From contig NZ_NHSQ01000092.1 in NCBI RefSeq assembly GCF_016653465.1, positions 1-56,501 on the forward strand: a stretch of DNA of 56,501 bases, given 5' to 3'. Made by a program: the position numbers and the translations under genes. Every line of letters starts with the position of its first letter. Position 1 is the stretch's first letter. Positions 11,306 to 45,982 of this stretch are shown one piece after another. The stretch is from Thiocystis minor (GTDB taxonomy: Bacteria; Pseudomonadota; Gammaproteobacteria; Chromatiales; Chromatiaceae). The notes beneath the pieces are model-generated. The model saw only the letters and a program-made list of their open reading frames with translations. It made no database searches and was not told the DNA's origin.

Positions 11306-12250
11306 CTAATCCCCCATCGGGGTCGGTTCATACACTAGATTCCAGCATAGCTCCGCATCCATTGCAATATCAGCAATTTCCACTTCCTCGTCTTGGTTGA
11401 ATGGCGGTTGCCGCTCGCTGGAACTGGAACTCTTGAGCAATTGCTCATCGCTCAACTCGGCCAAAATGGTTTGCACATGCTCCCGACCGAGTCGATGCAG
11501 TTCCTCAAGGCTGGCATGGAGCAAGAGGCGGCTAGCGAATTTATTAATTAATCTTGGGATTCCCTGGCTGGCATGATGAAGTGCGCGCACGGCGTCAGCC
11601 TCGATGACGGGATCGCCGGACCAGCCAGCGCATTGCAGGCGATGAGCGATATAGTTCCGGGCGTCTTCCAGCGGCAAAGGCTCAAGGTGACAGGTACAAA
11701 GAATGCGCTGATGCAACTGTTCCAGTTCGGGAGTGCGAATCAACTCGGTGAGCGCTTCCTGCCCAACCAGGAAAATTTGCAGCAGAGGCCGCCCCTGCAA
11801 GCGCAGGTTGGTCAACAGCCGCAATTCCTCCAAGGCGCTCGCCGGAAGCGTTTGAGCCTCATCGACAATCAGGAGCGTTTTTTGGTGATGGCGCATCCGT
11901 TCCTGGAGACGACCTTCCAGTAAATTCAGGATCGTTGCTTTATCGAGGCCGTTGGCCTCGATGCCAAATGCGAAGGCAACCCGCCGCAACAGGTCATCGC
12001 CCTGGACCTGCGCGCTCTCCAGGCGCACGCTGAGCGTGTCAGAATGCTCCAGATCGCCGAGCAGATCGTCGATCAGGGTTGTTTTTCCCGTGCCAGATTT
12101 GCCAGAGACGACGACGAATCCTTCGCCGTGCTTCAAGGCATACTGAAAATACGCCTTCGCTTTGGAGAAACCTCGATGCTTGAAACAGAAGCGGGCATCC
12201 GGGCTGAGCCGGAAGGGATCGTCGGAAAAACCGTAATACTCTGTATACAT
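11306..12250 (-). CDS. ExeA/GspA-like AAA ATPase
   Basis: 314 residues from ATG 12250 (AAGAG just upstream). The start MYTEYYGFSDDPF is typical of the ExeA-like family. Walker A SGKSGTGKTT is at 49-58, Walker B LLIVDEAQ near 125, and sensor-type residues follow in GIPRLINKF. Related proteins energise peptidoglycan remodelling for type II secretion or accompany exosortase/EPS loci. No PEP-CTERM, secretion or peptidoglycan-binding partner is adjacent, and the protein lacks a visible C-terminal membrane or PG-binding region. A Ser/Glu-rich tail follows the ATPase. Role unassigned. Confidence 0.75.
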   Translation of the reverse strand: MYTEYYGFSDDPFRLSPDARFCFKHRGFSKAKAYFQYALKHGEGFVVVSGKSGTGKTTLIDDLLGDLEHSDTLSVRLESAQVQGDDLLRRVAFAFGIEANGLDKATILNLLEGRLQERMRHHQKTLLIVDEAQTLPASALEELRLLTNLRLQGRPLLQIFLVGQEALTELIRTPELEQLHQRILCTCHLEPLPLEDARNYIAHRLQCAGWSGDPVIEADAVRALHHASQGIPRLINKFASRLLLHASLEELHRLGREHVQTILAELSDEQLLKSSSSSERQPPFNQDEEVEIADIAMDAELCWNLVYEPTPMGD

Positions 12251-12587
12251 GGCTCTTGAGAGGCGGTCCGTAGGGCGTTTGTCGGCATTGTCGGGGGGCA
12301 TGCTCGACCTAGTGCAACTGTGCGAAAGTCCCAAGACCGTCTTCAGGTCGTTGTCCTTTTCCTTTTCCTTGTCGTTGTCGTAATCGAATATTCGCCATGT
12401 CGAGACCACGATCACGATCACGACAACGAGGAGGCATCGGTCTCGGAACTTGAGCAGCGAAGCACTAGGGGAATTTGTCCGCGGCGCTCGCGTAGAATAT
12501 CACCCGTTCACCCCATCGTGCGTCATACAACCCAGACGTGACTTCCGCAACCGATAAATTCATCGCAAGCCGATTGTCGGATCCGCA
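12251..12587. other. Gene-free stretch between the ExeA-like gene and hrpA
   Basis: Contains repeat element A (12309-12468) and about 120 bp upstream of hrpA. Both neighbouring genes are transcribed outwards from here, so both promoters should be in this stretch. I did not find a clear -35/-10 pair. Confidence 0.6.
12309..12468. repeat. GACAAC-arm repeat element, copy A (core inverted relative to B and C)
   Basis: Bounded by a 7-bp terminal inverted repeat, CTAGTGC (12309-12315) and GCACTAG (12462-12468). Inside are GTGCGAAAGTCCCAAGACCG on the left and GGTCTCGGAACTTGAGCAGC on the right, themselves imperfectly inverted. Arms of GTCGTT / GACAAC type enclose a core (about 12380-12420) containing the palindrome CGAATATTCG followed by GCCATGTCGAGACC. 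With the ends held in the same orientation, this core reads opposite to copies B and C. The left arm is partly replaced by CCTTTT units. Confidence 0.8.
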
Positions 12588-15500
12588 GTGCACTCTGGCT
12601 GCCGGCACGAATCCACTTTCCTTCGGTACGCCAGATCCACCTTGAATTCACGCCTCCTCCCCACCGAACACGACCTGGATCGCTGTCTGATCCGCGATCG
12701 CCAATCCTTCCGGTCACGACTGCGCGGGCTGCGCAAACGCGAGCGGCCGCACCCTGAGCGGAGTCAGCAGGCTGCCCAGCCCTTCGATCAGAGACTAGCG
12801 AAACTCTGGCTGGACATCCAGCAATCCCAGGCGTTGCTAGAACGACGCAAGGCCCAGGTGCCGAGGATCCAGTATCCCGAGGAACTGCCGGTCAGCGAGC
12901 GCCGCGTCGAAGTGGCCGAGTTGATCGCCCGTCATCAGGTGGTGGTGCTATGCGGCGAAACCGGCTCGGGCAAATCCACTCAGCTACCCAAGATCTGTTT
13001 GGAACTGGGGCGCGGGCTGGCCGGACGCATCGGTCACACCCAACCGCGACGGATCGCCGCGCGCACCCTGGCCAGTCGGATCGCGCAGGAACTAGGCGCG
13101 AGCGCGACCGATCGCGGGGGCGATCCGATCAACAGTCTGGTCGGCTACAAGGTGCGCTTTCATGACCGAATCCGTCCCGAAACCTGTATCAAGCTGATGA
13201 CCGACGGCATCCTGCTGGCCGAAATCCAGCAGGACCGCCTGCTCACCGAGTATGACACGATCATCATCGACGAGGCCCATGAGCGCAGCCTCAACATCGA
13301 TTTTCTGCTCGGCTATCTGCGCGGCATCCTGCCGCGCCGCCCGGATTTCAAGCTGATCGTCACCTCGGCGACCATCGACCCGCAGCGGTTTGCCGCCCAT
13401 TTTGCCGACGACCAAGGCCAGCCCGCGCCCATTATCGAAATCTCGGGCCGCACCTGGCCGGTCGAGGTCCGCTACCGTCCGCCAGCGGACGACGAACACG
13501 CCGGCGAGCGCGACGACGCCATGCAGCAGGCGATCTCGGACGCGGTTGGCGAATTGGCCCAGGTCGGGCGCGGCGACGTGCTGGTGTTCCTCTCCGGCGA
13601 ACGCGAGATCCGCGAAACCGCCGAGACGCTGCGCAAGCACCACCCGCCCGCGACCGAGATCCTGCCGCTGTTCGCGCGCCAGGGGCCGCAAGAGCAGGCG
13701 CGCATCTTTCAGTCGCACAGCGCGCGCCGCGTCATCCTGACCACGAACGTGGCCGAAACCTCGCTCACGGTGCCCGGCATCCATTATGTGATCGATCCCG
13801 GATTCGCGCGCATCAGCCGCTACAGCCATCGCACCAAGGTCCAGCGTCTGCCGGTCGAGCGGATTTCGCAGGCATCGGCCAATCAGCGCAAGGGACGTTG
13901 CGGGCGCATCGCCTCCGGCGTCTGCATCCGGCTCTACCGCGAGGACAATTTCGAGTCCCGCGCCGACTTCACCGAGCCGGAGATCGCGCGCACCAACCTG
14001 GCCGCCGTCATCCTGCAAATGAAGATGCTCGGTTTCGGGGCCGTCGAGCGTTTTCCTTTCGTCGACCCGCCCGATTCCCGGCTGGTCGCCGATGGCTATC
14101 GCACCCTGGAGGAACTGGGCGCGCTCGACGCCCGCGGCGAGCTGACCACGCTCGGGAAGCAGCTCGGACGTCTCCCGGTCGACCCGCGCATCGGGCGCAT
14201 GCTGCTCGCCGCCGTGGAGCATCGCTGTCTGGCCGAGATGCTGATCATCGCGGCGGCACTGAGCGTGCAGGATCCGCGCGAGCGTCCGCTCGACAAACAG
14301 CAGGCCGCCGACGAAATCCACGCCACCTTCCGTCACCCTGAGTCGGATTTCCTCACCTTCGTCAACCTCTGGCGCTTTCTCGACAAGGAACGTCACGAGT
14401 TGTCGCGAAACAAATTCATCAAACTCTGCCAACGCCATTTTCTCTCCTGGAACCGGGTCCAGGAATGGCGCGATATCCATGCGCAACTGCGCGAGCAGAT
14501 GACAGAGATCAGTTATCAGATGTCAGGTGGCAGTTGTCAGTCAGCAGGCAACAAAAATCGCGTGACCGATCATGGTCAACTGCCAACTGACAACTGCCAA
14601 CTGACAACTGACAACATCCACCGCGCCCTGCTGACCGGTCTGCTGGGCAACATCGGTTTCCGCGAAGCCGAGCGCGAGTTTCAGGGCGCGCGCAACGGTC
14701 GTTTCTTCATTCATCCCAGTTCCGCGCTCTTCGCCAAACCGCCGAAATGGGTGGTGGTCGCCGAGCGGGTCGAGACGACGCGCCAGTACGGGCGTATCGC
14801 GGCCCAGGTCCAGCCGGGTTGGATCGAGGACGCGGGCCGGCATCTGCTCCAGCGCAGCTATTCCGAACCGCACTGGCAGGCTAAATCCGGTCAGGTCGCG
14901 GCCTTCGAGAAGGTCACGTTGTTTGGCGTCACGCTGGTTCCGAAGCGGCGCGTCAACTATGGCCCCATCAATCCCGCCGAGGCGCGCGAGATCTTTCTGC
15001 GCTTCGCCCTGGCCGAGGGCGATTTCGAGACCCGCGCGCCCTTCTGGCGTCACAATCGCGAGCTGATCGAGTACGTTCATCACCTGGAGGCCAAATCGCG
15101 CCGGCGCGACATCCTGGTGGACGAGGAGGCGATTTATGCCTTCTATGCCGACCGCGTGCCGACGGGCATTTACTCGACGCCTCAGTTCGAGAAATGGCTG
15201 CGCCAAGCCACGCGCACGGACCCCAAACTGCTGCATCTGCGCATGGCCGATCTCATGCTGCACGAGGCGGCGGACGTGACCGAGCAATCCTTTCCCGACA
15301 GCCTGCGCATCGGCGCCACCGCGCTGCCCCTGGAATACCGCTTCGAGCCCGGCGATGCCGCCGACGGCGTCACGCTCGTCGTCCCGCTGCCGCTCGTCAA
15401 CCAAGTCTCCAGCGAACGGCTCGACTGGCTGGTGCCGGGTCTGATCGAGGAGCGCATCGTCGCCCTGCTGCGCGGTCTGCCCAAACCGCTTCGCAAGACT

Positions 15501-16727
15501 TTCGTGCCCATCCCCGACACCGCCGCCCGACTGGTCGCGCGCCTGAAGCCGTCCGACCGACCGCTGATCCAGGCGCTGTCCGAGGCGTTGAAGGCCATGA
15601 CCGGCATCCAGGTGCCGGAGGATGCCTGGGATCCGTCCGTCATCCCCGAGCACCTGCGCATGAAGATTCGGCTGGTGGACGAGACCGGCAAACCGCTCGC
15701 GGTTGGCGACGATCCGGTTCAGCTCAAGCGCCAGTTCGGCGGTCAGGGCCGGCAGGGTTTCAGCCAGCAGTCATCCAGCCCGATCGAACGCGAGGACATC
15801 ACCCGCTGGACCTTTGGCGATCTGCCCGAGCAGGTCGATCTGACCCGCGCCGGCATCCGGCTGCGCGGCTATCCGGCGCTGGTCGACCGCAGCGACCGCG
15901 TCGCTATTCAGATTCTGGATTCAGCGGAGAGCGCCGCGGCGGCGCAGCGCGCTGGATTGCGGCGACTCGTCATGCTGCATCTCGGGGCCGATCTGCGCCA
16001 ACTGCGCAAGCAACTGACCGACCTGGATCGGATGCGTCTGCAATACGCCAAGGCGCCCAGCGCGAAGAACCCCGGCGACTCAGCGACGCAGGAGACTGGA
16101 AACCCGAGCAAGAGCCAGTCGAGCAAGGAGTTGGATCTGGCCGACGAACTGATCGCGCTCATCCTTGACCTGACGTTCATCGAAGGGCTGCCGCTCATCC
16201 GAACTCAAGCGGTCTTTGAACAGCGCCTGGCCGCGCGTAAGGATCGACTCTTTCCCACCGTGACCGAGGTCTGCAAGCTGATTGGCGGCATCCTCGCGTC
16301 CTATCACGATCTGCGCCGGCGTCTCGCCGGTATCACCCAGATCAACTGGATACCCTCCGTGCTCGACATTCGCGCACAACTCGACGCGCTGATCTTTCGC
16401 GGTTTCCCGCAGCGAATTCCCTTCGCGCATCTCAAGGACTATCCGCGCTATCTCAAGGCGATCGACCAGCGGCTGGAACGCCTAGCGCATGCCCCCGGCC
16501 GCGACCAACAGTGGATGCGCGAGATGGACGAGATCCAAACCCGCTGGCGCAAGCGCGTAGCGGAGCGTCAGCGTACCCTGAGCGACACCGACGGGGATCC
16601 GCGTTTGGACGAGATTCGCTGGCTACTGGAGGAACTGCGCATCGCGCTCTTCGCCCAACAGCTCGGCACCACCGTTCCGGTCTCGGTCAAACGCATTCAG
16701 ACCCGTTGGTGCGAGTTGGGTTTGTGA
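12588..16727 (+). CDS. hrpA: ATP-dependent RNA helicase HrpA (DEAH box) with an in-frame repeat insert
   Basis: 1379 residues from GTG 12588; TTG 12642 is an alternative, and comparison with E. coli HrpA (RDRLRF near residue 22) cannot settle it. Motifs: GETGSGKST at 123-131, DEAH at 228-231, SATID, then QRKGRCGR in motif VI. The helicase-associated and OB regions and the long DUF3418 C-terminus follow. HrpA rescues stalled ribosomes on mRNA in E. coli. Residues about 642-677 (SYQMSGGSCQ ... CQLTTDN) are encoded by a palindromic DNA repeat sitting between REQMTEI and IHRALLTGLL, where the E. coli protein has only a short linker. Confidence 0.95.
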   Translation: MHSGCRHESTFLRYARSTLNSRLLPTEHDLDRCLIRDRQSFRSRLRGLRKRERPHPERSQQAAQPFDQRLAKLWLDIQQSQALLERRKAQVPRIQYPEELPVSERRVEVAELIARHQVVVLCGETGSGKSTQLPKICLELGRGLAGRIGHTQPRRIAARTLASRIAQELGASATDRGGDPINSLVGYKVRFHDRIRPETCIKLMTDGILLAEIQQDRLLTEYDTIIIDEAHERSLNIDFLLGYLRGILPRRPDFKLIVTSATIDPQRFAAHFADDQGQPAPIIEISGRTWPVEVRYRPPADDEHAGERDDAMQQAISDAVGELAQVGRGDVLVFLSGEREIRETAETLRKHHPPATEILPLFARQGPQEQARIFQSHSARRVILTTNVAETSLTVPGIHYVIDPGFARISRYSHRTKVQRLPVERISQASANQRKGRCGRIASGVCIRLYREDNFESRADFTEPEIARTNLAAVILQMKMLGFGAVERFPFVDPPDSRLVADGYRTLEELGALDARGELTTLGKQLGRLPVDPRIGRMLLAAVEHRCLAEMLIIAAALSVQDPRERPLDKQQAADEIHATFRHPESDFLTFVNLWRFLDKERHELSRNKFIKLCQRHFLSWNRVQEWRDIHAQLREQMTEISYQMSGGSCQSAGNKNRVTDHGQLPTDNCQLTTDNIHRALLTGLLGNIGFREAEREFQGARNGRFFIHPSSALFAKPPKWVVVAERVETTRQYGRIAAQVQPGWIEDAGRHLLQRSYSEPHWQAKSGQVAAFEKVTLFGVTLVPKRRVNYGPINPAEAREIFLRFALAEGDFETRAPFWRHNRELIEYVHHLEAKSRRRDILVDEEAIYAFYADRVPTGIYSTPQFEKWLRQATRTDPKLLHLRMADLMLHEAADVTEQSFPDSLRIGATALPLEYRFEPGDAADGVTLVVPLPLVNQVSSERLDWLVPGLIEERIVALLRGLPKPLRKTFVPIPDTAARLVARLKPSDRPLIQALSEALKAMTGIQVPEDAWDPSVIPEHLRMKIRLVDETGKPLAVGDDPVQLKRQFGGQGRQGFSQQSSSPIEREDITRWTFGDLPEQVDLTRAGIRLRGYPALVDRSDRVAIQILDSAESAAAAQRAGLRRLVMLHLGADLRQLRKQLTDLDRMRLQYAKAPSAKNPGDSATQETGNPSKSQSSKELDLADELIALILDLTFIEGLPLIRTQAVFEQRLAARKDRLFPTVTEVCKLIGGILASYHDLRRRLAGITQINWIPSVLDIRAQLDALIFRGFPQRIPFAHLKDYPRYLKAIDQRLERLAHAPGRDQQWMREMDEIQTRWRKRVAERQRTLSDTDGDPRLDEIRWLLEELRIALFAQQLGTTVPVSVKRIQTRWCELGL
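14511..14617. repeat. Palindromic repeat inside hrpA
   Basis: Two arms of about 30 bp, built on TGGCAGTTGTCAGT (left, about 14511-14541) and ACTGACAACTGCCA (right, about 14585-14617), are inverted around a ~45-bp centre. The right arm also contains the direct repeat CAACTGACAACTGC. The whole unit keeps the hrpA frame open in this orientation. Confidence 0.8.
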
Positions 16728-36348: not shown

Positions 36349-36689
36349 TCGGCGGGCCGGGTCTGGATCGGACTCGGCGCCATCGGCGGGACTCATCTAT
36401 TGCTATTTCATAAAATACTTATATACTAACCCACGTTCTGAGCGAAAACCGCTGCTTGATCACAGGCACTCGTCCCTGAATAAACCAAATCGCCTGTGGT
36501 TCGCATGGTTGATGTCACAAAAATTAAAAAACCGGAACCGTATCTGCTGCAAGGGTCATTGGCTGACGCAATGCCGATGCCACTCGAAAACAGCGCCTGT
36601 CATGCTGGATGCGGTTCAATCGATCGGGATGTTGCATGGCCGTTTGCGCGTTCATTTCATTTTTCTCTTCCATCACCATGGTGTGTCCT
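36349..36689. other. AT-rich upstream region of the Met/Pro-repeat protein gene
   Basis: 341 bp with no credible gene. It is more AT-rich than its surroundings and holds a sigma70-like promoter (36400-36427). The short open frames here lack a ribosome-binding site and a recognisable product. The long distance from promoter to start (about 260 bp) leaves room for an untranslated leader. Confidence 0.55.
36400..36427 (+). promoter_or_regulatory. Candidate sigma70 promoter
   Basis: TTGCTA (36400-36405), 16-bp spacer, TATACT (36422-36427), in an AT-rich patch. The hexamers match the consensus at four and five positions. Points towards the repeat-protein gene. Confidence 0.45.
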
Positions 36690-37376
36690 ATGTCCAAGCT
36701 GATCCAAGCCGCTTCCATCGTCGCCCTCGCTGCCGCCGCTTCCACTGCTGGCGCTTGGTATGCCGCTCCTCCCCAAGCCCCCGCCATGATGACGCAGGCG
36801 CCGCAACCGGCGGCGGTCAAGCAGGGCGCCGCGAATTTCAGACCGTTAACGGGCCATCCATTCGGTGCCGGTCACGCATTCCCGGACGTTTCGCCGATGC
36901 CCGAGTTTGGACAATATCCCGCCATGCCCGAGATGCCCGCGTTCGGCCAATACCCGAATCGGCCGGACATGCCCCCAATGCCCGAGTTCGGACAGTTCCC
37001 AAATCGCCCTGACATGCCGCCGATGCCCGAGTTCGGACAGTATCCAGCCATGCCCGAGATGCCCGCGTTCGGCCAATACCCGAATCGGCCGGACATGCCC
37101 CCAATGCCCGAGTTCGGACAGTATCCCGCCATGCCCGAGATGCCCGAGATGAAGCGTGAGCGTCCGGCCATGCCTGAAGCGTTCGAGGCCCGAATCAAGG
37201 AAATGGAAGCCCGTCGCGCCCAAGCGAAACAACAGATGGAAGAGCGCCGCGCAGCCATGAAAAGCGAGCAGGAGCAGCGTCGCGCACAATATGCCGCGCA
37301 CAGCTTCGATGCGGGCCGGGGCATGAACTCCAATGCGCCGTGCGCGCCCGCGACAACCTCGCACTCCGTGCAGTAA
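36690..37376 (+). CDS. Secreted Met/Pro-rich tandem-repeat protein with a C-terminal coiled coil
   Basis: 228 residues from ATG 36690 (MSKLIQAASIVALAAAAS), giving a clean Sec signal cut near residue 20-26. Residues 70-154 are tandem units of the pattern MPEFGQYPAMPEMPAFGQYP and NRPDMPP; the DNA repeats are nearly identical, so they are recent or under conversion. Residues 163-202 form a charged coiled coil (EARIKEMEARRAQAKQQ). The protein is extracytoplasmic and low-complexity. In purple sulfur bacteria, sulfur-globule envelope proteins are exported and of unusual composition, and SgpD is described with a coiled coil; similarity is by character only, so the link is tentative. A terminator follows, so it is monocistronic. 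Confidence 0.7.
   Translation: MSKLIQAASIVALAAAASTAGAWYAAPPQAPAMMTQAPQPAAVKQGAANFRPLTGHPFGAGHAFPDVSPMPEFGQYPAMPEMPAFGQYPNRPDMPPMPEFGQFPNRPDMPPMPEFGQYPAMPEMPAFGQYPNRPDMPPMPEFGQYPAMPEMPEMKRERPAMPEAFEARIKEMEARRAQAKQQMEERRAAMKSEQEQRRAQYAAHSFDAGRGMNSNAPCAPATTSHSVQ
36897..37152 (+). repeat. In-gene tandem repeats of the Met/Pro protein
   Basis: Two long units (about 36897-37022 and 37023-37145) each contain ATGCCCGAGTTCGGACAGTA-like and GCGTTCGGCCAATACCCGAA segments. A shorter variant (TTCCCAAATCGCC) separates them. Such repeats can change copy number by slippage. Confidence 0.8.
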
Positions 37377-37492: not shown

Positions 37493-37650
37493 CTCGTGCT
37501 TCGCTACTCAAGTTACGAGACCGGGGTCTCCTCGTTGTCGTTGTCGTTGTCGTAATCGAATATTCGCCATGTCGAGACCGCGATCACGACAACGACAACG
37601 ACAACGACAACGGCCTGAGACGATCTCGGGACTTTCGCACCGTTATACTA
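37493..37650. repeat. GACAAC-arm repeat element, copy B
   Basis: The element lies in opposite orientation to A and C: GTGCTTCGCTACTCAAG on the left, GGGACTTTCGCACC and CTAG on the right. GTCGTT arms (37531-37550) and GACAAC arms (37586-37610) enclose the core CGAATATTCGCCATG...GACC. Its CTAG end (37647-37650) contributes the stop codon of gshA. Confidence 0.8.
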
Positions 37651-39231
37651 GTGGCCCTGGGCGAAATAGGTTTCCAGAAAGTCGTCGAAACTCCGATCGT
37701 CCGCGGCTTCGATCTCTCGCTGTTGCCGGAGCGAGTCGACCGCCAACCGATCGAGCAACGCCTGACGTTCAGGGCTCAACTCCAAGGACCGCAGGTCACG
37801 ACGATGCTTCTCGGCAAGCCGTTGCGAAAAGGCGAAAAAGCCTTCGTGCCGCTCCCGCATCGTTTCCAGGATCCGCGCGGAAGGCGTGAGGTCGGGATGC
37901 CCGACCTTTTCCCGCTGCCGCCGCAAATTCTCGGAGCGCGGGCCATTCGCCGCGCCGTCCAGCAGTTCCGCCGCCGCCGCCATTCCATCAAGAATTTCGC
38001 CCGCCCACTGGCGCAAGGCGACAGGGCTTCGGTCGCGGACTAACGCCAGCCCCGGCTCGCGGCCGCGATGGGCCGTCAGCACCTGATTCTCGTCGATCTC
38101 CCGACGCTCGCGCGCGCCGATCCTCGGGCTGCCGAGCAACAGGCAGTAGAGCATCAGGCCGTCGAGGAACAACAGCTGTTCGTCGCCCACACCCACTGGC
38201 TCGAAAATATTGACATCCAGCGAGCGGAGTTCGACATAGCGAATGCCGCGCCGACGCAAGGCCAGGGTCGGTTTTTCCATCCAGTCCATGATCTGCTTCG
38301 GGCGCACCGTGCTGTAGTACTCGTTTTCGATCTGGAGCACGTTGGCGTTGAGCTGTTCGTAGCGGTCGCCAACCTTGACGCCAATGGCCTCGTATTGCGG
38401 ACAGGGCGTCTGGATGGCCCAGGTCAGACTGCGCACATAGGCGTCGAGGCTGTCGTAGTTGGCCTTGATGCCCGTCCCTTCCTCCTGCTTGTTTTGATAG
38501 CCGATGTCGCCCATGCGCAACGAGGTGGCGTGGGGATAGAACAGGGTATCTGCGTCGAAGCGCTGGAGATCGGTCTCCCGTCCCTGCACAAAGCTGGCAC
38601 AGACCGCCGGCGAGGCCCCAAACAGATAGGGCACGAGCCAGCCGATCCGTTGCAGGTTGCGGATCATGCCCATCTGGGCCTCGGCGCGAAACCCGACGCG
38701 CTCGCCCGTCACCACCTCCTGATCCTGATAGAGATCCCAGAAGGCATCCGCGAAGGAGAAATTGAAGTGCACCCCGGCAATCAACTGCATGGTGCGTCCG
38801 TAGCGATTGCCCAGACCGCGCCGATAGGCGGTCTTCATGGTCGCGGCGTTGGAGGTTCCATACTGGGCGAGCGGAATTTCGCCGGCACGCGACAGGATGC
38901 ACGGCATGCTGGTGCCCCAGAGCAGTTCACCCGGAAGATGCCGGTAGACATAGAGATGGATGTCGGTCAGAAACTCCAGCGCCTCGCGCCCACTGCTCAG
39001 CGGCGGCGTAATGAGTTCGATCAGTGCCTCGGAAAAATCCGTGGTGATGTAGGGATGGGTGAGCGCCGCGCCCAGGGCAGGCGGGTGCGGCGTCTCGGCG
39101 AGTCTGCCGTTCGCCGAGACGCGCAGACCTTCTTTTTCCAGACCGATGCGGTTGCCGGCGAAGGTGGCGCTGCCACCCGCGGCCGCCAACCGTGCAATCC
39201 GCCGTTCCAACGTCGCTTGCGAGTCGTTCAA
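37648..39231 (-). CDS. gshA: Glutamate-cysteine ligase (class 1)
   Basis: 527 residues, close to the E. coli enzyme. It makes gamma-glutamylcysteine, the first step to glutathione (or glutathione amide in purple sulfur bacteria). GLEKEGLRVS near residue 30, TTDFSEALIELITPP, AGVHFNFSF and RYVELRSLDVN are typical active-site segments. It starts 2 bp after the prc stop, so the two are probably cotranscribed. Its TAG stop is the outermost part of repeat element B. Confidence 0.95.
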   Translation of the reverse strand: MNDSQATLERRIARLAAAGGSATFAGNRIGLEKEGLRVSANGRLAETPHPPALGAALTHPYITTDFSEALIELITPPLSSGREALEFLTDIHLYVYRHLPGELLWGTSMPCILSRAGEIPLAQYGTSNAATMKTAYRRGLGNRYGRTMQLIAGVHFNFSFADAFWDLYQDQEVVTGERVGFRAEAQMGMIRNLQRIGWLVPYLFGASPAVCASFVQGRETDLQRFDADTLFYPHATSLRMGDIGYQNKQEEGTGIKANYDSLDAYVRSLTWAIQTPCPQYEAIGVKVGDRYEQLNANVLQIENEYYSTVRPKQIMDWMEKPTLALRRRGIRYVELRSLDVNIFEPVGVGDEQLLFLDGLMLYCLLLGSPRIGARERREIDENQVLTAHRGREPGLALVRDRSPVALRQWAGEILDGMAAAAELLDGAANGPRSENLRRQREKVGHPDLTPSARILETMRERHEGFFAFSQRLAEKHRRDLRSLELSPERQALLDRLAVDSLRQQREIEAADDRSFDDFLETYFAQGH

Positions 39232-44381: not shown

Positions 44382-45205
44382 ATGCCTCGAACGTTAACAC
44401 GACTGCCCTTGCTGTTGCTCGTTGTCGCGCTTGCCGGCTGTGGAATCTTCGGCAAGGAAATCGACCCAACCGAGGGCTGGAGCGCCGCGAAGCTCTATGC
44501 GGAGGCGGCCTCCGAACTCGATTCCAGCAATTACACGCGCGCCGTCGAACTTTACGAAAAGCTGGAGTCGCGCTATCCCTTCGGGCGTTACGCCATGCAG
44601 GCCCAGCTCGACGTGGCCTATGCGCACTATCGCGCGGAGGAGCCGGAGAAGGCCATCGCCGCCGCCGATCGATTCATCAAGCTCTATCCGCAGAATCCGT
44701 TCGTCGACTATGCCTACTATCTGAAAGGCATCGTCAACTACAACCGCAGCGTGGGTTTCCTGGATCGCTACATCCCGACGGATGCCTCCCAGCGCGATCC
44801 TGGCTCGGCGCTCGACGCCTTCACGGATTTTTCCGCGCTGGTCGAGCAGTTTCCGGACAGCAAGTACGCGGAAGACGCGCGTCAGCGCATGCTCTATCTA
44901 CGCAACAACCTCGCCAGACATGAAGTGAATGTCGCCCGTTATTACATGCGTCGCGGCGCCTATCTGGCCGCGGCCAATCGCGCCAACCATGTCATCGAGC
45001 GTTTTCAACGCACCAGTGCCGTCGAGGATGCGCTGGAGGTGCTGATCGACGCCTACCGCGCGCTGGACAAGCCGGAGCTGGCCGCCGACGCCAAACGGGT
45101 GCTGGATCTGAATCGTCAGGCCGGGCGTTTCGTGTCCGACGAGCCAGAGCCTGGCGAGGTCGATCTGGCCCGCAAGCTATGGGAATACCTCAAGCTCGAC
45201 GAAGG

Positions 45206-45209
<4 letters not shown>
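44382..45209 (+). CDS. bamD: Outer-membrane assembly lipoprotein BamD
   Basis: 275 residues. The lipobox is ALAGC (Cys about 20), followed by five TPRs (YEKLESRYPFGRYA, RFIKLYPQNPFVDYA). Essential partner of BamA in beta-barrel insertion. The protein is longer than E. coli BamD (245), with an acidic tail. The TAG stop falls in the CTAGTG end of repeat element C. Confidence 0.96.

Positions 45210-45982
<773 letters not shown>

Follow-up and report, generated by a model that had tools for sequence, protein, structure and literature searches.

We found that a 56,501-nucleotide stretch of the Thiocystis minor genome, hereafter the window, carries three copies of a small dispersed element whose internal core runs in either direction relative to the element's own ends. 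Across the genome the two orientations are nearly equal in number, the core is inverted in place at orthologous sites, sites without the element read through a single TA, and the left end is similar to one found on an IS630-type element in Thiorhodococcus. We put at roughly 70% the probability that the element is an IS630-type MITE whose core is inverted in place, slowly, by an error acting on the arms that enclose it, with template switching as the favoured agent.

Read directly from the window sequence, copy A occupies positions 12309–12468, copy B 37493–37651 and copy C 45206–45373; B is one base longer than first stated, and the whole element is reversed there on the plus strand. As the first-pass annotation had described, the three copies have in common their ends, hexamer arms and core, namely GTGCGAAAGTCCC, TTGAG(C/T)AGCG, GTCGTT/AACGAC arms (partly degenerate in A) and CGAATATTCGCCATGTCGAGACC. 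Oriented by its ends, the element begins with C-TA-GTGCAACTGTGCGAAAGTCCCAAGACCGTCTCAG and closes with GGAGGCCCCGGTCTCGGAACTTGAGCAGCGAAGCAC-TA-G. Between them lie, in this order, GTCGTT hexamers forming the first arm, the core CGAATATTCGCCATGTCGAGACC together with a few bases linked to it, and AACGAC hexamers forming the second arm. In copy A, all on the plus strand, the left end (12309–12346), which resembles an IS630-type end of Thiorhodococcus, is followed by a left arm of partly degenerate GTCGTT-type hexamers (CCTTTTCCTTTTCC; 12347–12384), the core (12385–12407, located by the core search), the right arm (12408–12429) and the right end (12430–12468). Copy B runs from its right end (37493–37531, minus strand) through an arm of TCGTTG hexamers (37532–37556, plus strand), the core (37557–37579, plus strand, core search) and an arm of AACGAC hexamers (37580–37613, plus strand) to its left end (37614–37651, minus strand). 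Copy C comprises a left end (45206–45245), a left arm (45246–45268), a core on the minus strand (45269–45291, core search), a right arm of 7.7 perfect ACGACA units (45292–45340) and a right end that has lost AAG before the terminal CAC (45341–45373), with every part except the core given on the plus strand. With the ends aligned, the core of A, followed from the left end towards the right, reads CGAATATT...GAGACC, and the cores of B and C run the opposite way, again as first noticed. We call the A-like orientation "same" and the B/C-like orientation "opposite".

The predicted single-strand folds of A, B and C had z-scores of -2.8, -5.4 and -3.4, and for C one of 200 shuffles folded as well. 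Arm pairing is long and perfect in B, and the arms of A are unlike. Copy length varies mainly in 6-bp steps (23 of 32 copies share one remainder), so the arms gain and lose units. Copy A lies in the region between ORFs 11306–12421 (minus strand) and 12588–16727 (plus strand); the listed minus-strand ORF runs into the copy, and its true start may be further in. The TAG of B's left end is the stop codon of the minus-strand ORF 37648–39231, which we take to be glutamate-cysteine ligase-like, and the CTAG of C supplies the stop codon of ORF 44382–45209, presumably BamD-like; insertion at a CTAG target can thus keep a TAG stop. Other repeats were also seen. Within ORF 36609–37376, positions 36892–37148 of the window form an array whose repeat units measure about 45 and 126 bp and code for MPEFGQYP-type repeats, and a CAACTGA heptamer array lies at 14577–14615 within the long ORF 12588–16727. 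TAACTGA direct repeats are described for Thiocystis violascens in the available part of PMC4679880, and in the genome G005 (identified below) arrays near 418.6, 1480.9, 4056.0 and 4458.5 kb of contig C1 match the ACCACTGACC-type heptamer repeats in the flank of copy L026.

To delimit the family we used a 23-bp core query with up to 3 mismatches and, as a control, the core read backwards. The T. minor genome (G000), a draft of 5.3 Mb in 198 contigs, gave 47 core matches and the control 0, which excludes chance. Among 54 relatives searched, own genome counted, three contained the core: T. minor with 47, the uncultured Thiocystis MAG Loclat_bin-17750 (G004) with 12, and G005, a single 5.0-Mb contig that is probably Thiocystis violascens DSM 198, with 3. 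Seven of 210 same-family genomes matched the core. Four of these are real, the fourth being Thiorhodococcus mannitoliphagus DSM 18266 (G201) with 11 cores; G116, G127 and G218 each gave a single 3-mismatch match without arms or ends and were dropped as chance. We infer that the element family belongs to the Chromatiaceae. Full elements span 122–183 bp between outer ends (32 full copies in T. minor), and the family as a whole is about 150 bp long. Right ends numbered 35 in T. minor and 14 in the MAG, so that broken copies exist beyond the 47 and 12 scored cores. Among matches lacking a core, L122–L124 are copies of the element that were broken or deleted; the pattern used did not match L125, and L126 and L127 seem to be unrelated. 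End matches with 3 mismatches (including those on C70, C127 and C142) are at chance level; the controls of that search matched 4 times. Rfam at gathering thresholds gave no match in the window, and a viral collection gave no exact match to the core pattern.

Copy A is no lone exception within a uniform family, the circumstance in which the first-pass annotation would have read its core as a single old rearrangement: the 47 cores of T. minor divide into 24 same and 23 opposite. End motifs scored 45 of them (23 same, 22 opposite) and arm-flanking motifs the other two (L068 and L069), with the call for L049 weak. The 34 copies in which both ends were recognised comprised 20 same and 14 opposite, and both orientations also occur in the MAG (5 same, 7 opposite) and in G005 (1 same, 2 opposite). 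Orientation was unlinked to the similarity of the ends. Among the 34 copies, nearest neighbours agreed in orientation at a rate of 0.46 against a shuffled mean of 0.50 (p 0.66), and the mean end distance was 11.3 within orientation classes and 12.0 between them. The fourth core base is likewise mixed (same:opposite, A 16:16, T 8:6, G 0:1). Where TCAT precedes the core, every copy is opposite, 4 of 4 in T. minor (L012, L024, L058, L106) and 3 of 3 in the MAG (L116, L117, L118), which suggests that this sublineage spread after a core flip; some copies have thus spread in the flipped state, and orientation is not fully independent of lineage. The arm-flanking left motif was found in 21 same and 14 opposite copies and the right motif in 18 and 14. 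In both classes, then, the bases immediately flanking the arms remain attached to their own end, which places the inverted segment between the arms.

Comparison of the flanks of 70 copies (47 from T. minor, 12 from the MAG, 3 from G005 and 8 from T. mannitoliphagus) yielded eight orthologous pairs in all, drawn largely from drafts (T. minor and the MAG), and the core was inverted in four of the eight. Two discordant pairs have both flanks assembled, copy A with L120 of the MAG and L011 with L115. In the other two, L007/L119 and L112/L121 (G005 versus the MAG), the MAG copy sits at a contig end; because L119 and L121 each lie where a MAG contig breaks off, the strict count is two of six. The concordant pairs were L033/L111, L050/L116, L010/L107 and L029/L109. 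In alignments of the discordant pairs, ends and flanks are collinear and disagreement is confined to the segment between the arms. The core therefore flips in place at fixed loci, in the manner of a spacer inversion, and the flanks are unchanged. This bears out the proposal in the first-pass annotation that the segment between the inverted arms can turn round. Of its two suggestions, an inverting repeat or a core swapped during spread, the inversion is real, and since flipping occurs at fixed loci a swap during spread is not the whole account. The orthologous sites also tell against two subfamilies with opposite cores, each spread by transposition with no flip after insertion. The uniform TCAT sublineage is what such subfamilies would produce, but the main core alleles and end lineages are mixed, and we regard this history as very unlikely.

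Two further explanations of the discordant pairs are that the core was replaced or that it was misassembled. In ectopic gene conversion, the arms would let two copies pair in opposite senses and the core of one would replace that of the other; all copies do have similar arms, and the core sequences differ between several orthologues, as conversion would predict. However, L112 and L121 (the latter ending its contig) both carry a GAGATC core ending found in 3 of the 70 copies although their orientations differ; inversion in place explains this better than replacement does and leaves conversion unlikely. Alternatively, assemblers might have joined the core either way round, an idea that gains from the draft state of the T. 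minor and MAG assemblies and from several copies that end contigs. It is nonetheless the least probable of the explanations considered, because the single-contig G005 holds both orientations, full elements are no longer than the 183 bp given above, and the T. mannitoliphagus draft shows no mixture. Moreover, in A, L120 and L011 the core can be tied to its ends by features peculiar to those copies: no other of the 70 copies has the exact core of L120 or that of L011, and A has a degenerate left arm. As these marks lie close to the ends, an assembler mix-up is unlikely there. Inversion in place thus accounts best for the discordant pairs.

The tempo of inversion can be judged from T. mannitoliphagus, in which all 11 cores are same and 0 of 11 opposite, against 23 of 47 opposite in T. 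minor (Fisher p 0.002, with the 11 copies related by descent rather than 11 independent trials, and four of them at contig ends). The difference among its left ends amounts to 0.57 of 37 bases (7 copies, match limit 4 mismatches), compared with 3.7 of 37 in T. minor (35 copies, limit 6), and its arms are comparable. Finding all 11 cores in one orientation in a young-looking family speaks for slow inversion by mutation and against a fast switch, under which even young copies should be mixed. The same orientation is probably that of the founder. Assuming a star phylogeny and a common founder orientation, we estimate roughly that each copy undergoes between 11 and 72 flips per substitution per site; the lower bound is weak because some flipped copies, those of the TCAT sublineage, have spread as such. 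Two of the 11 cores, L285 and L286 (contigs C366 and C110), both in the same orientation, lie in copies whose left end takes another form (CTAGTGCTGCGGGTTAGAAGTCGCGAGGCC) while core and arms are unchanged, so that one core is carried by different ends.

These data bear on a phase-variation switch, in which a site-specific recombinase or transposase would flip the core through the arms in living populations, perhaps altering transcription of neighbours. Near-equal states (24:23) are expected of a freely running switch, and a crude ORF scan placed 28 of the 47 T. minor copies between ORFs (15 tandem, 8 convergent, 5 divergent), with 17 overlapping an ORF and 2 unclear. Set against this are the uniform cores of T. 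mannitoliphagus, arms that are hexamer arrays of varying length with no evident crossover site, and orientation that had no clear relation to gene context in the same crude scan of 47 copies, where numbers are small. A switch of this kind is distinctly improbable. The active inversion envisaged in the first-pass annotation accordingly holds insofar as the core does invert in place; the process looks slow, however, and unlike an actively inverting switch. More speculative still, and highly improbable, is a bistable part, by which the mobile element would bring an invertible cassette to dozens of places in the genome, where an activity of the host or of a transposase would flip it and so could alter the termination or expression of neighbouring genes, with each copy's state inherited over many generations.

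Slow inversion in place concerns the core; the element that carries it looks like a TA-targeting MITE of the IS630/Tc1 type. It is short, dispersed and, judged by its length, probably non-coding, with ORFs running into some copies, and its ends form terminal inverted repeats, the typed consensus left and right ends agreeing at 24 of 33 positions. Insertion was precise at five of the eight sites compared, where clean empty sites carry one TA (B, L015, L019 in G005, L073 and L093). Copy B is absent from both the MAG and G005, and both read through its site with one TA. The L019 site, empty in G005, holds pieces of the element in the MAG. Among the same eight sites, L022, L024 and L026 gave no alignment across the junction and no clean empty site. 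Site C is unoccupied in the MAG and G005, with a right flank that fails to align next to the site. Consistent with duplication of the target, 27 of the 32 full copies are flanked by TA on one side or both, 14 of them on both; counted the other way, 18 lack TA at one or both flanks, 5 at both. Although TA is present in all five empty sites, 11 of the 32 T. minor copies pair TA at one junction with TC or GA at the other. CTAG has there become CTCG or CGAG, an A:T to C:G change that is the same on either strand, and this asymmetry hints at systematic repair acting at the junction.

TA targets point to the IS630/Tc1 superfamily, and empty sites with a TA fit IS630 better than REP/REPIN (RAYT-associated) elements. 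Searching four genomes for DDE_3 brought up, in T. mannitoliphagus, an IS630-type element with a DDE_3 transposase domain beside its end. The MITE left end, in its T. mannitoliphagus form, matches this Thiorhodococcus IS630-type end at 26 of 33 bases and the right end at 20 of 33; beyond the common CTAGTGC, the left end agrees at 19 of 26, a level reached by 0 of 200000 shuffles. By sequence comparison, the MITE has ends similar rather than identical to those of an autonomous IS630 member in another genus. At up to 3 mismatches, the IS630-type end occurs 10 times in T. mannitoliphagus, 2 times in G202 and 17 times in G203, and 0 times in T. minor, the MAG, G005 and G028. All 29 listed ends follow TA, 28 of them CTA. 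The proposed mover is thus missing from the searched Thiocystis genomes, where the MITE is commonest.

In the mechanism we favour, a non-autonomous DNA transposon (MITE) would insert at TA, mostly in a C-TA-G context, moved most likely by an IS630-family transposase. Its non-palindromic core (23 bp and a few linked bases) sits between inverted GTCGTT/AACGAC hexamer arms, and after insertion an error acting on these arms would invert the core in place. The inverting agent would most likely be polymerase template switching between the arms during replication, or else recombination or cruciform processing. Flips would be slow per generation, fast relative to base substitution and probably neutral; old families would approach one half, young families would keep the founder orientation, and flipped copies would also spread.

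Within this mechanism, reciprocal recombination or cruciform processing between the arms is a possible but less probable agent than template switching. RecA exchange usually needs longer arms than most here, which counts against recombination, whereas the unlike arms of A fit an exchange without homogenisation. Recombination has also been proposed for chloroplast loops that flip between short inverted repeats (PMC12928735, citing Kim and Lee 2005, in the portion available). Template switching, by contrast, is documented at such arm lengths; as far as the available text of PMC8604942 goes, switching between inverted-repeat arms inverts spacers and equalises the arms, and loop inversions are reported in bacterial rRNA genes in that of PMC8794818. 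Template switching should therefore make the arms alike, yet those of A differ, which argues against full homogenisation. Template switching between the arms is still the agent we favour.

As a rule, inversion of a spacer flanked by short inverted repeats is observed at individual loci. Here dozens of copies, related genomes, and older- and younger-looking families offer a setting in which the rate, its dependence on arm length and the agent could be measured, a natural record of hairpin-shaped DNA flipping over evolutionary time. A further lesson is that descent cannot safely be read from the direction in which an internal segment of a hairpin MITE points.

Several known systems share parts of this arrangement. 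RUP, the repeat unit of pneumococcus and a MITE linked to IS630-Spn1, is likewise small (107 bp), with terminal inverted repeats, a TA target and IS630-like ends; it differs in host and sequence, and the accessible text of PMC2229807 mentions neither hexamer arms nor an invertible core. Correia/NEMIS elements are also small TA-flanked bacterial MITEs, but their size variants differ by a 50-bp internal sequence, and core inversion goes unmentioned in the same portion of that source. In the PMC literature searched, as far as its text was available, no report describes core inversion in a bacterial MITE or a MITE family randomised by spacer inversion. The IS630-type element of Thiorhodococcus (T. 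mannitoliphagus, with the same end in G202 and G203) has a CTAGTGCAAC-starting end like the MITE left end and is inserted after TA. Unlike the MITE, it is full-size with a transposase and was not found in the Thiocystis genomes searched; its apparent far end lies in L282. Template-switch inversions of spacers and loops, as described in the available parts of PMC8604942 and PMC8794818, turn a spacer in place between inverted arms, reversibly and recurrently. They concern single loci, with 2–5 substitutions in yeast and rRNA loops of typically 4 nt, whereas the core here is at least 23 bp and belongs to a mobile family. Chloroplast hairpin loops of 5–50 bp flip between inverted repeats of 11–24 bp (PMC12928735, in the portion available), but these sites are in plastids and do not form a transposable family scattered through a genome. 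That a spacer can invert at short inverted repeats is already known, and the present case adds a hairpin MITE with its core inverted in place often enough for the two orientations to be nearly equal.
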